From Lactiplantibacillus daoliensis (GTDB lineage Bacteria > Bacillota > Bacilli > Lactobacillales > Lactobacillaceae): 64,000 nucleotides of DNA. Both the position numbers and the translations under genes were made by a program. Positions 3,055-46,292 of the stretch are shown here, piece after piece. The stretch spans positions 124,001 to 188,000 of the forward strand of contig NZ_BJDH01000001.1 in the NCBI RefSeq assembly GCF_005405005.1, read 5' to 3'. The notes under the pieces were generated by a model. That model was not told the origin of the DNA. It saw nothing but the letters and a program-made list of their open reading frames with translations, and did not search any database. Positions within the stretch are counted from its first letter, which is position 1, and each line of letters starts with the position of its first letter.

Positions 3055-3257
3055 CATGTTAAATGCTGATTTCATCGTCGACAGCGCTCCGCAACTGAAT
3101 CCCAGTTGCGACAGTCCTTGATTTGTTCAACCAAGGCCCAACAATCTCGACGGTAACAGTCAAGATCATTTCGGCGATCGCCCCTTTCACCAATCATCAA
3201 CACCGGTTACCCGATTCCGACTGGCTACTCATGTTAACCGCGTCCTCTTCTTTCGAT
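3055..3257 (-). promoter_or_regulatory. Lysine riboswitch (L box)
   Basis: On the reverse strand the order of conserved blocks fits the lysine aptamer: AGAGGACGCGG near the 5' end, ATGAGTAGCC, then GTGAAAGGGGCGATCGCCGA, GTTGGGCC, GGACTGTC and finally TTGCGGAGCGCTGTCGACG. A terminator follows at 3043-3009. Binding of lysine is expected to stop transcription. The next gene downstream is the LysP-like permease at 2500, so this is its likely control element. A T-box was considered and rejected because the TGGTACCGCG signature is missing. Confidence 0.85.
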
Positions 3258-9564: not shown

Positions 9565-9585
9565 TGATTATTTTCTAAAGGCTGC

Positions 9586-10144
9586 AAGTTAAAAATTGTC
9601 GGTCTGCACCACTATTTCAATAATAAGGCGGTGAAGATTAGTCGATGACTGCCGCTTCCGATTGTTACTGATAGCATGCGAACAAGGGACTGGTTCAAGC
9701 CTCAGAAACGTCTTGACCCTCGCCCGGAAGCTTTGCCAAAACCGCAAATCTCCCGAACCGTCCGTGGTGTAAGACCGGCAAAAATAACACCCGGTCAAAC
9801 GCCACCTGCACGTCCGATGCTAACAGCAACAGCCTTCAGCTAATCAGTAGCTCTTTTGTAAATCAGTTAGTCACGCTTAGCGGAGTCAATTAAAATCGGT
9901 GTGCAGTGTCGGCGAAATTAGTCAGCGTTCTTAGTTGACTAATTTCGCGGGGCAATTCAAAGACGTGCTTCTTCGGCTTTGAATTGAGGTGCCAGACCGT
10001 CCTTTGGCTGGCACCGTCCCCCACAGCACACCAATTTTGACTGACGGAGCGTTGAATTTGAGCGAATCTACTTTAGATGTAATGGTTACTGGCGCTGCGA
10101 CATTTGTGATATTTGTGATATTTTTGAGCCTTTCAACCTCTTTA
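9586..10144. repeat. Structured repeat R1: double cloverleaf-like element
   Basis: About 560 bases with no convincing gene. Module A (9664-9830) has outer arms 9664-9683 and 9812-9830 around hairpins 9692-9719, 9726-9753 and 9764-9805. Module B (9892-10038) has outer arms with GGTGTGC and GCACACC around hairpins 9913-9947, 9953-9986 and 9988-10015. A diverged copy lies in inverted orientation at 28777-29312 and keeps every stem, several by compensatory changes. It starts directly after the stop codon of the DUF915 gene when read on the reverse strand. Confidence 0.85.
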
Positions 10145-10145
10145 A

Positions 10146-10997
10146 TTATTTTCCCCACAGAAAGTGAATCAAGGTCCGATCGACTTTGGGATTCTCATGT
10201 AATTTTGAATGGCGTGCAAGCTTCCCCGTGAACACCTTTTCCCGATAAGACTTTGCCCGTGGACTGACCAGATACTTCAAAGACAGCGAGGACACATTCG
10301 GCACCGTCCCATCCGTCTGACCACCAATATTACCGTACAGATTTAACACACTCACCTGATTTTTCGGCAACACTTGTCGCAGTTTCGTCATTTCGCGATA
10401 AGTCGCATTCATGTGATTGGGTTTTCCAGCCGAGTTCAGGCTCAAGCCGGCCGGTTGTGTGACTGCGGCCGGTAACTTGTCAAAATTCAAGCCAGCAAAA
10501 TGGCCAGCAATATCGACTTGTTTACGCAATTTCGGTAACTTAGTGTTGCCTGAATTTTGCAACGAATAATAAATCAGCGAAATGTTACCTAATGAGTGTC
10601 CGACCATATTTATCGACTTGAAATGATATTGCTTTTGCAACGCCTTGACCACATTAGTCGCCCATTCGCCATGCTTACGATAGTTTAGCTCGCGATTATT
10701 TTCATAATTCACTTCGACAATCGGATTGGTTGCGCCCGTTTTGATCGTCCCAACTAGTTTAACCCGCCCAGTCTTGTCCACCATCGCGCGAATGATTGTA
10801 TTAGTCGCACCGGCTTTTTTCGCAGCATTAGCCATCTGTTCTTCAGCATGATAGCTACTACCACCACCGTGAAAAAACAAGGTCGGCGTCAACTTTTGAC
10901 TCGCCCTTGTTGAAATTTTGTGTTGCGTACAGCTGGCTAAGCTCACCCCTAAAATGATGACCAAGCCTAAAAAGAGCCCTAACCACTTTCGTTTCAT
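10146..10997 (-). CDS. DUF915-type alpha/beta hydrolase lipoprotein
   Basis: 283 residues. The N-terminus is a signal peptide ending in a lipobox (VSLASC), so it should be anchored to the outer face of the membrane. The body is the DUF915 hydrolase fold: PTLFFHGGGSSYHAE at the oxyanion region, the nucleophile elbow INMVGHSLGN and a C-terminal catalytic His in KLARHSKLHENPKV. Substrates of these lactobacillar surface hydrolases are largely unknown. ATG 10997 is preceded by AGGGGATTTTGCAG; the TTG two codons earlier is less likely. It stands alone; the structured repeat R1 begins immediately after its stop and no ordinary terminator is seen. Confidence 0.85.
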   Translation of the reverse strand: MKRKWLGLFLGLVIILGVSLASCTQHKISTRASQKLTPTLFFHGGGSSYHAEEQMANAAKKAGATNTIIRAMVDKTGRVKLVGTIKTGATNPIVEVNYENNRELNYRKHGEWATNVVKALQKQYHFKSINMVGHSLGNISLIYYSLQNSGNTKLPKLRKQVDIAGHFAGLNFDKLPAAVTQPAGLSLNSAGKPNHMNATYREMTKLRQVLPKNQVSVLNLYGNIGGQTDGTVPNVSSLSLKYLVSPRAKSYREKVFTGKLARHSKLHENPKVDRTLIHFLWGK

Positions 10998-28660: not shown

Positions 28661-28776
28661 TGCTTTTCCTCCATTATTGACTCGTTAATTTCATTTTACC
28701 CGTCATGCTCATAATAAAAAAGTCCGCAACCTTATCAGGTCTCAGACTCTTGCATGTTTATAATTTTTTAACTAAT

Positions 28777-29312
28777 GGTTGAAAGGCTAAAAAATATCAC
28801 TAATGTCGCAGTACCGGCGACCGTTACGTGTAAAGTAGACTTGTCTAAATTCAGCGTTCCGTCAGTCAGAATCGGTGTGCCGTGGGGGCCAGCGCCAGCC
28901 GAGGTGCGGTCTGGCGCCTCAATTCAAATCCGATAAAACACGTCTTTGAATTGCCCCGCGAGACTAGTCAGCCAGGCACGCCGACTAGTCTTGCCGACAC
29001 TGCACACCGATTTTGACTGACTACACTAAGCGTAAATAACTACTTTATCTCCACAAAACTAATGATTAGCTGGAGGTTGTTGCTGATAACATCGGACGTG
29101 CAGGTGGCGTTTGACCGGCGTTTTTTCCGGTCTTACACCACGGACAGTCCGGGAGATTTGCGATTTTAGCAAAGTTTCCGGGCGAGGCTCAAGACGTTTC
29201 TAAGGCTTGAACCGGTCCCTCGTTCGCATGTTATCTGCAACGACCGGATGCGGCAATGATCGACCAATTTTCATTACCAGATTGTTGACGTCCTCGTGCA
29301 GACCGGCAATTC
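28777..29312. repeat. Structured repeat R2: inverted diverged copy of R1
   Basis: The reverse complement of this stretch aligns along almost its whole length with 9586-10144. Module B lies at about 28868-29013 and module A at 29079-29241 (outer arms 29079-29097 and 29222-29241). Stem bases differ from R1 in matching pairs, for example TAGCAT/ATGCTA versus TAACAT/ATGTTA in module A, and CGAAATTAGTC/GACTAATTTCG versus CGAGACTAGTC/GACTAGTCTTG in module B. No gene is visible. It ends at the stop codon of the GNAT gene. Confidence 0.85.
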
Positions 29313-29888
29313 TTAACTTTCAACCTTGAGTTTTTTAACCATGTGCTCGTAGGGATGGACGCCAATCATCAATTGACCATCGACCTTGAAACCTTGGCGA
29401 TGATATAACTTGGCGGCTCGTGGATTGCCATCATCAACATTCAAGCTAAGTTTCTTCTCACCCAAGTCTGCCACCAAAGCCGGCAAAGCGCTCAACAACT
29501 GACTGCCAATACCTTGACCCTGGGTTTGCGGATCAACAGCTAACATGCTCAGGTACCATTCATCAGGCCGTGCCTCGCCACCTAATTCGAGTGCGCCATC
29601 AAAACCAGATTGAGCCGCCGAAACCGTCGCTAGAATTTGATTAACAGCCACTTCATTTTCTGCGGGATGACCAAAAGCGACCCCGAGAACTTGGTTACCA
29701 TCAACCGCAACAAAGGTCTGTGCTAAACCATCAATATTTTCCGGCATCGCATAAAGTTGCGTTAACATCGCCAATAAATCAGCTTCACTGACCTTTTTCA
29801 AGACCGGCATTTCCATATCCCGATAAATCATCGCAATCAATGGCGCAATTTGGGCACTATCTTGCGGTTGTGCTTTTCGAATTTGCAT
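29313..29888 (-). CDS. GNAT acetyltransferase
   Basis: 191 residues. IRKAQPQDSAQIAPLIAMIY is the typical GNAT start, and LAVDPQTQGQGIGSQLLSAL contains the acetyl-CoA pyrophosphate loop Q-x-x-G-x-G; the end has NPRAAKLYHRQGFKVDG. Substrate not predictable. ATG 29888 follows GGAGGCAAAT. The structured repeat R2 starts directly behind its stop codon. Confidence 0.88.
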   Translation of the reverse strand: MQIRKAQPQDSAQIAPLIAMIYRDMEMPVLKKVSEADLLAMLTQLYAMPENIDGLAQTFVAVDGNQVLGVAFGHPAENEVAVNQILATVSAAQSGFDGALELGGEARPDEWYLSMLAVDPQTQGQGIGSQLLSALPALVADLGEKKLSLNVDDGNPRAAKLYHRQGFKVDGQLMIGVHPYEHMVKKLKVES

Positions 29889-44432: not shown

Positions 44433-46292
44433 ATGAAAACTCGAGGGGGAAAAACCACATGGCTTAAACTCAGAAAAACTTGGCTCTTAATCATGGCAAC
44501 CTTAGCTATCATTGGCAGTATTGCCTTAAATACCCATGACGCAACCGTTGCCGATACGACTGAACAAAGTGTCGTTGTTCCAGATCAACGACCCGATACA
44601 GAAGACACAACCAACGATGAAAGCACGACACCAGATCAGCAACCAACCGAGGACGAAACAACACCTCCAGCTGAAAATTCTGATGCAGAAGATACCACTA
44701 TTGAAGACGAGCAAACTAATCAAGTCTTCGCTACAGAGGCATCTGATGATGAAATTCCTGATGGCGGCACTGTCTATGACGACCATCCCAACGTACAAAA
44801 CATCTTGGGGATTGCTTCAAAATTCCACATTTTTGCCTTTGAAGCAGAATTAGGCGTCCACACAGCCGGTAATGTCGCCGTCGGAAATATCGCCTGTATA
44901 ACCGACTTCGGTACGACCAACAAATTAGAACTGATTGATCGTGATATTAATTATATTCAAAGTATCACTAAAATTCATGAAGGTTCCTTCGTCTCTGCTG
45001 GTGAAATCCGTAGTAATAAAGTCATCTTCGGCGAAGGCATCGCCATCGATCGTAGCAATCCTCAACGAGTCAAAGTTAACGATGTCGACATTAACCATTT
45101 GTTGGCCGACGAAGTTTACCAAGATCGAAATGGTCAGACTTATATCAACTTTAATGATGAATTTGCCAAATTAACTGAAAGAAATATTCTCATCAGTAAA
45201 ATGACACCACAAAGAACGTACACTAAAACGGATTTTCCAGACATCAATCAACGCGTCATTGATATCACCGACTTTACTCCAGATGAAAATGACCGCATTA
45301 TTATTAATTTAGCCGCTGATCAGTTAACCATGGCACAAAAGCTGACTATCAAAGGGTTATCAACTACCCCTAATGGTAAAACAGTTATCATCAACGTAGA
45401 CATTGGCGGCCAGCATAACTTTAACAGTACCAGCCCCATTGAGATCATTTACGAAGATGGGACGACCCGCGGTAACAAAGATGATGATTATGGCGACAAC
45501 CATCTCCTTTGGAACTTCCACGCCAATCAGCAAACGTATGCTGGAACACTAGCATTTGATGGGATGTTTTCAGGTAGTGTCTTAGCCCCAGCTGCTGTTT
45601 TAGTGGCAAAGAAAAACATGGATGGTAACTTAATCGCCAAACGAGTGGAAATTCACGCTGAATCTCATCGCTGGGATTTACAAGATAACAGCGAAGAAGG
45701 TTTGGTAGAACCGGAGCCTGAAGAAGAACCAGATCCAGGAATTGAACCGGAACCAGGACCAAATCCAGAGCCAGAACCTGAACCGGGACCAGATCCTGAA
45801 CCAGATCCTGAACCTGAACCGGAACCAGAACCAGATCCTGAACCAGAACCAGAACCAGATCCAGATCCAGATCCAGATCCAGAGCCAGAACCGGAACCTG
45901 AAAAAGAAGATCCTGAACCAGATCCTGAACCGAAAGAAGTTGTCGAAACTGATCAACCAACGGAAGTCGATGATCCAGAAACAAGCACAGAGCTAGAAAC
46001 TGAATTGGACACGGCATTAGCTTTACCAGAACCAAAACGAACAACGGCAGTCAAGCGTGTTTTACGCAAAATCGACTCAGCAATTGTTCAAGCCAAGAAA
46101 GCAAGTGCCCCTGTCCAGGCAACCAAATTAACTACCCTTCGGACGCGTGGCTTAGCAGTTCTGCATACCGGACGCTTACCGCAAACTGATGAACGTCACA
46201 CAGAAGTCTTAACAACCATCGGCTTAGGCATGCTGGTCATGATTTTAATCACTGGCTCAAAAATGATTAAACGCTACAGGAAACGGAGCTAA
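44433..46292 (+). CDS. Sortase-anchored surface protein with choice-of-anchor-A-type domain and EP repeats
   Basis: 619 residues. Signal peptide-like N-terminus (hydrophobic about 12-32), an acidic, threonine-rich region (to about 100), a globular region with [13 protein letters not shown] and a choice-of-anchor-A/collagen-binding-like layout (about 120-420), a Glu/Pro/Asp repeat tract (about 425-505, DNA 45710-45935), then a helical segment and a C-terminal LPQTDE sorting signal with hydrophobic helix and RYRKRS tail. LPQTxE is the form used by the L. plantarum sortase. It should be covalently wall-attached; the function, perhaps adhesion, is inferred. GTG 44418 is the alternative start; ATG 44433 has GAGGTG eight bases before. 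Confidence 0.85.
45710..45940 (+). repeat. Pro-Glu-Asp coding repeat of the surface protein
   Basis: Repeating CCA-GAA/CCT-GAA/CCA-GAT codons give EPEP and DPDP runs that space the adhesin head away from the cell wall. It creates long open frames on the other strand (shadow frames, not genes). It is a length-variable candidate region among strains. Confidence 0.85.

Follow-up and report, generated by a model that had tools for sequence, protein, structure and literature searches.

Bacterial interspersed repeats are usually regarded as junk in decay that contains one or two hairpins. Among the families closest to the one reported here, the EFAR (Efa-1) repeats of Enterococci use hairpins as insertion targets and retain a portion of the target stem at each terminus. 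They are intergenic palindromic repeats of ~165 bp with two adjacent stem-loops (PMC2267715), and they are listed among the MITEs (PMC3733652). MITEs of the IS4 family are short, non-coding, intergenic and multicopy, with terminal inverted repeats (TIRs), 8-bp target duplications and internal-deletion derivatives. REPINs contain two inverted structured units per element and form long-lived populations within a genome, the underlying REP unit being ~20–40 nt in size (PMC3733652). bcr1 of the Bacillus cereus group, RUP and BOX of pneumococcus and Correia/NEMIS of Neisseria are likewise dispersed structured repeats with mobile-element traits.

The window analysed in this study is a stretch of 64,000 nucleotides from Lactiplantibacillus daoliensis, in which three elements, R0, R1 and R2, share features with each of these systems. 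All of the IS4-family MITE traits listed above are found in the present family, whose TIR CTAAAGGTTGAAAG is that of an intact IS4-family element of the genus; however, it is the inner cloverleaf pair that is conserved here and not the TIRs, and the pair is also found with different ends, or with no recognisable ends, in other genera. The two inverted structured units and the long-lived within-genome populations recall REPINs, from which the family differs in its unit of ~180 nt, in the lack of correlation with Y1 transposases and in the TIRs and duplications of one of its two types. For bcr1, RUP, BOX and Correia/NEMIS, the literature consulted (PMC2267715 included) describes no cloverleaf pair. 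Our literature searches found no description of such a cloverleaf design, and nothing relevant on Lactobacillus MITEs.

Overall architecture of the repeats

R1 and R2 are copies of one ~560-bp repeat (type I), inverted relative to each other and 80–83% identical over most of their length, and R0 is of a related ~360-bp type. R0 represents a second sub-family (type II) and is not a third copy of the R1/R2 element. The three stretches for which the original prediction had described a two-module design do carry it, with limits refined to 2565–2924, 9575–10144 and 28772–29330 (minus strand). The features are as follows; the E values are those of the covariance model described below.

2556–2564, no strand: probable left target-site duplication of R0, TGATTAACC (exact 9-bp repeat)
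2565–2924, plus: R0, type II element, an inverted cloverleaf pair with two hairpins per module and other ends
2567–2722, plus: module A of R0 (E = 7.7e-17)
2754–2905, minus: module B of R0, an inverted cloverleaf (E = 2.9e-11)
2925–2933, no strand: probable right target-site duplication of R0, TGATTAACC (exact 9-bp repeat)
9567–9574, no strand: left target-site duplication of R1, ATTATTTT (direct reading; identical 8 bp at 10145–10152)
9575–10144, plus: R1, type I element, classed from its ends as an IS4-type MITE with an inverted cloverleaf pair
9575–9588, plus: left TIR of R1, CTAAAGGCTGCAAG (two mismatches to the IS4-family TIR CTAAAGGTTGAAAG)
9651–9841, plus: module A cloverleaf of R1, outer stem and three hairpins (178.5 bits, E = 5.4e-52)
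9878–10053, minus: module B of R1, the cloverleaf inverted (E = 2.8e-20)
10130–10144, minus: right TIR of R1, in plus-strand letters CTTTCAACCTCTTTA
10145–10152, no strand: right target-site duplication of R1, ATTATTTT (direct reading)
28764–28771, no strand: target-site duplication of R2, TTAAAAAA, other copy
28772–29330, minus: R2, type I element in the opposite orientation to R1
28853–29028, plus: module B of R2, an inverted cloverleaf (E = 5e-16)
29068–29254, minus: module A cloverleaf of R2 (196.1 bits, E = 3e-57)
29331–29338, no strand: target-site duplication of R2, TTAAAAAA, one copy (8/8 match; locus L021)

At 29313–29330, the 3' end and the stop codon of a GNAT-like gene (29313–29888, minus) fall within the R2 terminal inverted repeat. 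Elsewhere in the window, positions 45678–45964 consist of ~12-bp tandem coding repeats (PEPEPDP-like, mostly E, P and D) within a 624-aa ORF.

R0, R1 and R2 are all far more stably folded than their dinucleotide shuffles (z = −5.7, −10.1 and −9.1, respectively). RNAalifold applied to 30 aligned and oriented copies of the R1/R2 type gave two cloverleafs with a variable spacer between them, each consisting of an outer stem of ~24 pairs and three hairpins. Each element contains two copies of one ~180-nt cloverleaf, inverted and head to head. A covariance model was built from 40 aligned A-type modules from ~14 species, which show two-sided changes at 39 of the 51 pairs, and this model matches all six modules of the window, the B modules on the opposite strand. 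Because the A-type model recognizes module B in this way, module B is identified, by sequence and fold, as an inverted and diverged copy of module A; both predicted modules exist, but not as two separate designs. Among neighbouring module pairs within 1.5 kb in the window's genome, 30 of 31 are convergent (+−), with gaps of mostly 22–42 nt, and inverted module pairs are also present in other genera. The compensatory stem pairs pointed out earlier (TAGCAT/ATGCTA against TAACAT/ATGTTA and AATTAG/CTAATT against GACTAG/CTAGTC) are present, as are the loops shared by R0 and R1 in the form quoted. Coding potential was considered for the right arm of type I and rejected, the protein-like open stretch not being kept in related copies on inspection by eye.

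Mobility of the elements

Type I copies are bounded by CTAAAGGTTGAAAG/CTTTCAACCTTTAG, terminal inverted repeats of 14–16 bp, and the TIR pattern CTAAAGGTTGNAAG, with at most one mismatch, has 88 matches in the window's genome against four in the control. Some TIR pairs enclose just 239–400 bp and represent internal-deletion derivatives. A search of plasmids with the type I end gave an L. plantarum plasmid whose copy of the TIR lies ahead of a transposase gene; the transposase of this TIR-bearing element is of the IS4 family (NCBIfam NF049925). An intact IS4-family insertion sequence (IS) with both TIRs and a 451-aa transposase is found in genome G008 (locus L217), with relatives in G010, G017, G019 and G020 (L218–L221). 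In these elements, L217–L221, the right end harbours a strong hairpin (e.g. GCATTACCGAGTAGCCTGG...), located where the transposase gene ends. Target duplications matching at 7 or more of 8 bp flank 13 of 28 type I copies, compared with a shuffled mean of 0.67 and a maximum of 4 in 2000 shuffles; in this survey the R1 duplication ATTATTTT is offset by one base.

Since they combine IS4-family TIRs with 8-bp target duplications, R1 and R2 are assigned, from their sequence, to the MITE-type non-autonomous transposons of an IS4-family IS. The elements had been described as matching no Rfam family and no mobile element. The first part stands, as no Rfam family matches them at gathering or relaxed thresholds; the second does not, because the transposon match that had been named beforehand as counter-evidence was found in the IS4-family ends and the 8-bp duplications of R1 and R2.

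The vehicle differs between the types. Besides R0, type II copies have 9–10-bp repeats such as TATAGTAGCT together with TIR-like ends that differ from those of type I and are approximately CACTTGGTGCTAGTTGACTTAAATTGCC in some copies; repeats of 8 or more occur in 5 of 10 type II copies against 1.1 expected. In other genera no IS4-type TIR was seen at the module pairs, and target duplications immediately at the module ends are not clearly above chance. EFAR-like target-stem remnants were not found, the complementarity of the flanks being 5.58 against 5.50 ± 0.23 in shuffled sequences. The cloverleaf was not found within the IS4-family elements, and the cloverleaf pair is a cargo that is also found with other ends. 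No IS4-type transposase or IS with the type I TIR was found in the window's own genome. Because the IS4-type transposase was also not found in the module-rich genomes G004, G007, G013, G016 and G018, it may not be the maintainer of the modules.

The site of R0 is empty in most of the Lactiplantibacillus species compared. In most relatives the lysine riboswitch directly adjoins the permease gene, and R0 is therefore an insertion; in L. nangangensis, module B alone is kept at this site. At the R1 site, L. pingfangensis carries an apparent decayed remnant in place of the complete element. The proposed searches for target-site duplications and empty sites thus both gave positive results, in the type I copies and the 9-bp repeat of R0 for the former and at the R0 site for the latter. 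An IS4-family transposase would have moved R1 and R2 in trans, leaving 8-bp target duplications, and R0 is regarded as their sister, which has the same cargo but other ends and a duplication of 9 bp. The mobility is by known means, and the unusual part is the inverted cloverleaf cargo with its DNA-level constraint.

Occurrence in lactic acid bacteria

In the window's genome, 40 best copies were listed by DNA search and at least 132 modules by the covariance model. Contig C4 of genome G000 (275,013 bases, outside the window) carries one of the 132 listed modules, against about ten to fourteen expected by length, and is a chromosomal region poor in modules. Modules are present in 15 of 21 Lactiplantibacillus genomes, with a maximum of at least 124 per genome, and are absent from the other six. 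In the wider sample of Lactobacillaceae, the covariance model was positive in 45 of 201 genomes and 11 of 40 genera, so that the family reaches across no fewer than eleven genera and the many genomic copies foreseen for it are borne out. With more than 100 modules of ~180 nt plus flanking arms, the share of some food-bacterium genomes is estimated at roughly 1–2%. A lone module relic lies at 1634–1788 of locus L101 in L. plantarum EGD-AQ4 (E = 7.6e-11).

Among 295 genomes sampled across the order, two outside the Lactobacillaceae (G333 and G270, both of family f2) have one weak match each. The matching repeats have 34 and at least 40 DNA copies, are ~165–200 nt long with an AGCC...GTCT hairpin, and several of them match the model independently (best E = 4.7e-10). 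These weak matches, which lie in a second family of the Lactobacillales and are likened to EFAR by description, suggest a probable kinship with the enterococcal EFAR repeats. No match to R1 was found among 50,697 phage and 72,556 plasmid records; a phage or plasmid origin was rejected on this basis, four pattern matches in viral contigs being attributable to chance.

The inverted palindromic pairs, the intergenic location, the high copy number and the extrahelical bases would also be expected of a giant form of REP/REPIN moved by a RAYT (Y1) transposase that has folded single strands as its substrate, and a Y1 gene is present in the window's genome. However, Y1_Tnp is missing from G004, G008, G013, G016, G018 and G020, each of which has between 63 and at least 123 modules, and is present in G001, G002, G015 and G019, all without modules. 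Locally encoded Y1 proteins are short and IS200-like, and the TIRs and 8-bp target duplications of type I are unlike REPINs. A RAYT/Y1 partner was rejected because the two distributions do not match, and a REPIN origin is very improbable. The single-strand origin of rolling-circle plasmids was also considered as a functional analogue; no test result supports it.

Constraint on the fold

In an alignment of 132 distinct modules, 92.9% of the cells pair and two-sided changes occur at 50 of the 51 pairs. The covariation score is 0.677, compared with 0.193 ± 0.005 in shuffled and 0.07–0.11 in slid alignments, in agreement with the structure-preserving evolution originally proposed. One-sided wobble is rare: G.T and A.C mismatches number 174 and 142, against 5835 Watson–Crick cells, although the decay of old inserted copies adds symmetric mismatches and may dilute a G.U signal in this ratio. 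When pairs with common mismatches were left out, the 95 best modules gave a G.T:A.C ratio of 91:91, whereas the Lactiplantibacillus lysine riboswitch, used as a control, gave 124:11. As G.T is about as frequent as A.C, the stems are constrained as Watson–Crick pairs on both strands. This spectrum does not fit an RNA of a single fixed sense strand (174:142 against 124:11), one form of the initial alternative of RNA or single-stranded DNA. The spectrum fits DNA hairpins or cruciforms, or an RNA that is obliged to fold in either orientation. With DNA folding parameters, both strands fold better than every shuffle. Among the 30 type I copies, A.C mismatches outnumber G.T when either module is read in the A orientation, which hints at a possible preferred strand; this excess is absent from the wider alignment.

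Long palindromes are hot spots for template switching, and the elements might be plain selfish MITEs in which template switching from one palindrome arm to the other during replication, and not selection, preserves the stems. Copying from arm to arm yields two-sided changes with almost no one-sided intermediates, as observed here. Such copying should, however, erase mismatched positions, and the non-complementary stem positions are near-invariant (columns 69, 119, 151, 178, 214 and 225–226 at 0.93–1.00), which argues against simple arm-to-arm copying. The loops are moreover conserved across 11 genera, and orthologous modules change less than their flanks, so that we consider this explanation improbable.

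The conservation of orthologous modules is evident at two sites. Module B of R0 is 96% identical between the window's species and L. nangangensis, against 86% for its flanks (p = 0.0036), and an orthologous module B of L. songbeiensis and L. dongliensis is 88% identical against 72% for the flanks (p = 0.0006), where one hairpin stem shows paired changes in its two arms. Orthologous solitary modules are therefore shown to be conserved above their flanks. Within type I, private substitutions per kb number 38–42 at the edges, 29 in the spacer and 13–30 in the modules, values that come from copies picked as best matches and in which alignment errors raise the edge figures.

The genomic setting bears on whether the cloverleaf acts as RNA in the orientation in which it has landed, as a read-through structure that, within leaders or 3' ends, alters mRNA stability or termination, an effect also proposed for other MITEs of bacteria. 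None of the sampled type I copies lies inside a gene; 14 of 29 are between convergent genes (compared with 10 of 42 gaps between genes in the window), and they often adjoin stop codons. R0 lies in a leader, between the lysine riboswitch (3074–3257, minus) and the amino-acid permease gene (1052–2500, minus). Its insertion extends the permease leader by several hundred bases in the window's lineage. For bacterial MITEs, transcription and effects on neighbouring mRNAs have been reported (PMC3733652), and folding from either strand would likewise remove G.U pairs. Nevertheless, the near equality of G.T and A.C is unlike the riboswitch control, about half of the neighbourhoods are convergent and without a fixed sense strand, and there is no Rfam relative. 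RNA action in either orientation, as the element happened to land, appears rather unlikely but is the chief rival to folded DNA.

With moderate confidence, we favour the explanation in which R1 and R2 are IS4-type MITEs, R0 is a sister element and their shared cloverleaf cargo acts as folded DNA read by a protein. The cloverleaf would be extruded as a DNA hairpin or cruciform on either strand, and its conserved unpaired bases would be read by a putative binding protein. Recognition of the fold may then aid the amplification or maintenance of the elements, possibly with a benefit to the host; a host role is suggested by the single modules that are still conserved at their sites after loss of the partner. 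No protein partner was found, and the presence of Y1 and IS4-type transposases fails to track module numbers. A wider version, which we put forward tentatively and regard as somewhat doubtful, is that the modules form a deeply conserved folded-DNA class of the Lactobacillales, in which cloverleaf pairs selected site by site are carried by several unrelated transposon vehicles and serve a host or element function via a structure-specific protein.

Conclusions

In conclusion, this study describes a family of bacterial interspersed repeats that keeps an elaborate fold by Watson–Crick exchange alone, even at orthologous sites after the loss of one module. The family also cautions against taking strong covariation of intergenic repeats in bacteria as proof of an RNA. 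Were the fold read as DNA, it would exceed in size the structure-specific recognition sites known for REPs and for integron attC, and a comparison of species that have modules with those that lack them, among them the module-free Lactiplantibacillus genomes, would provide a natural test for the protein partner.
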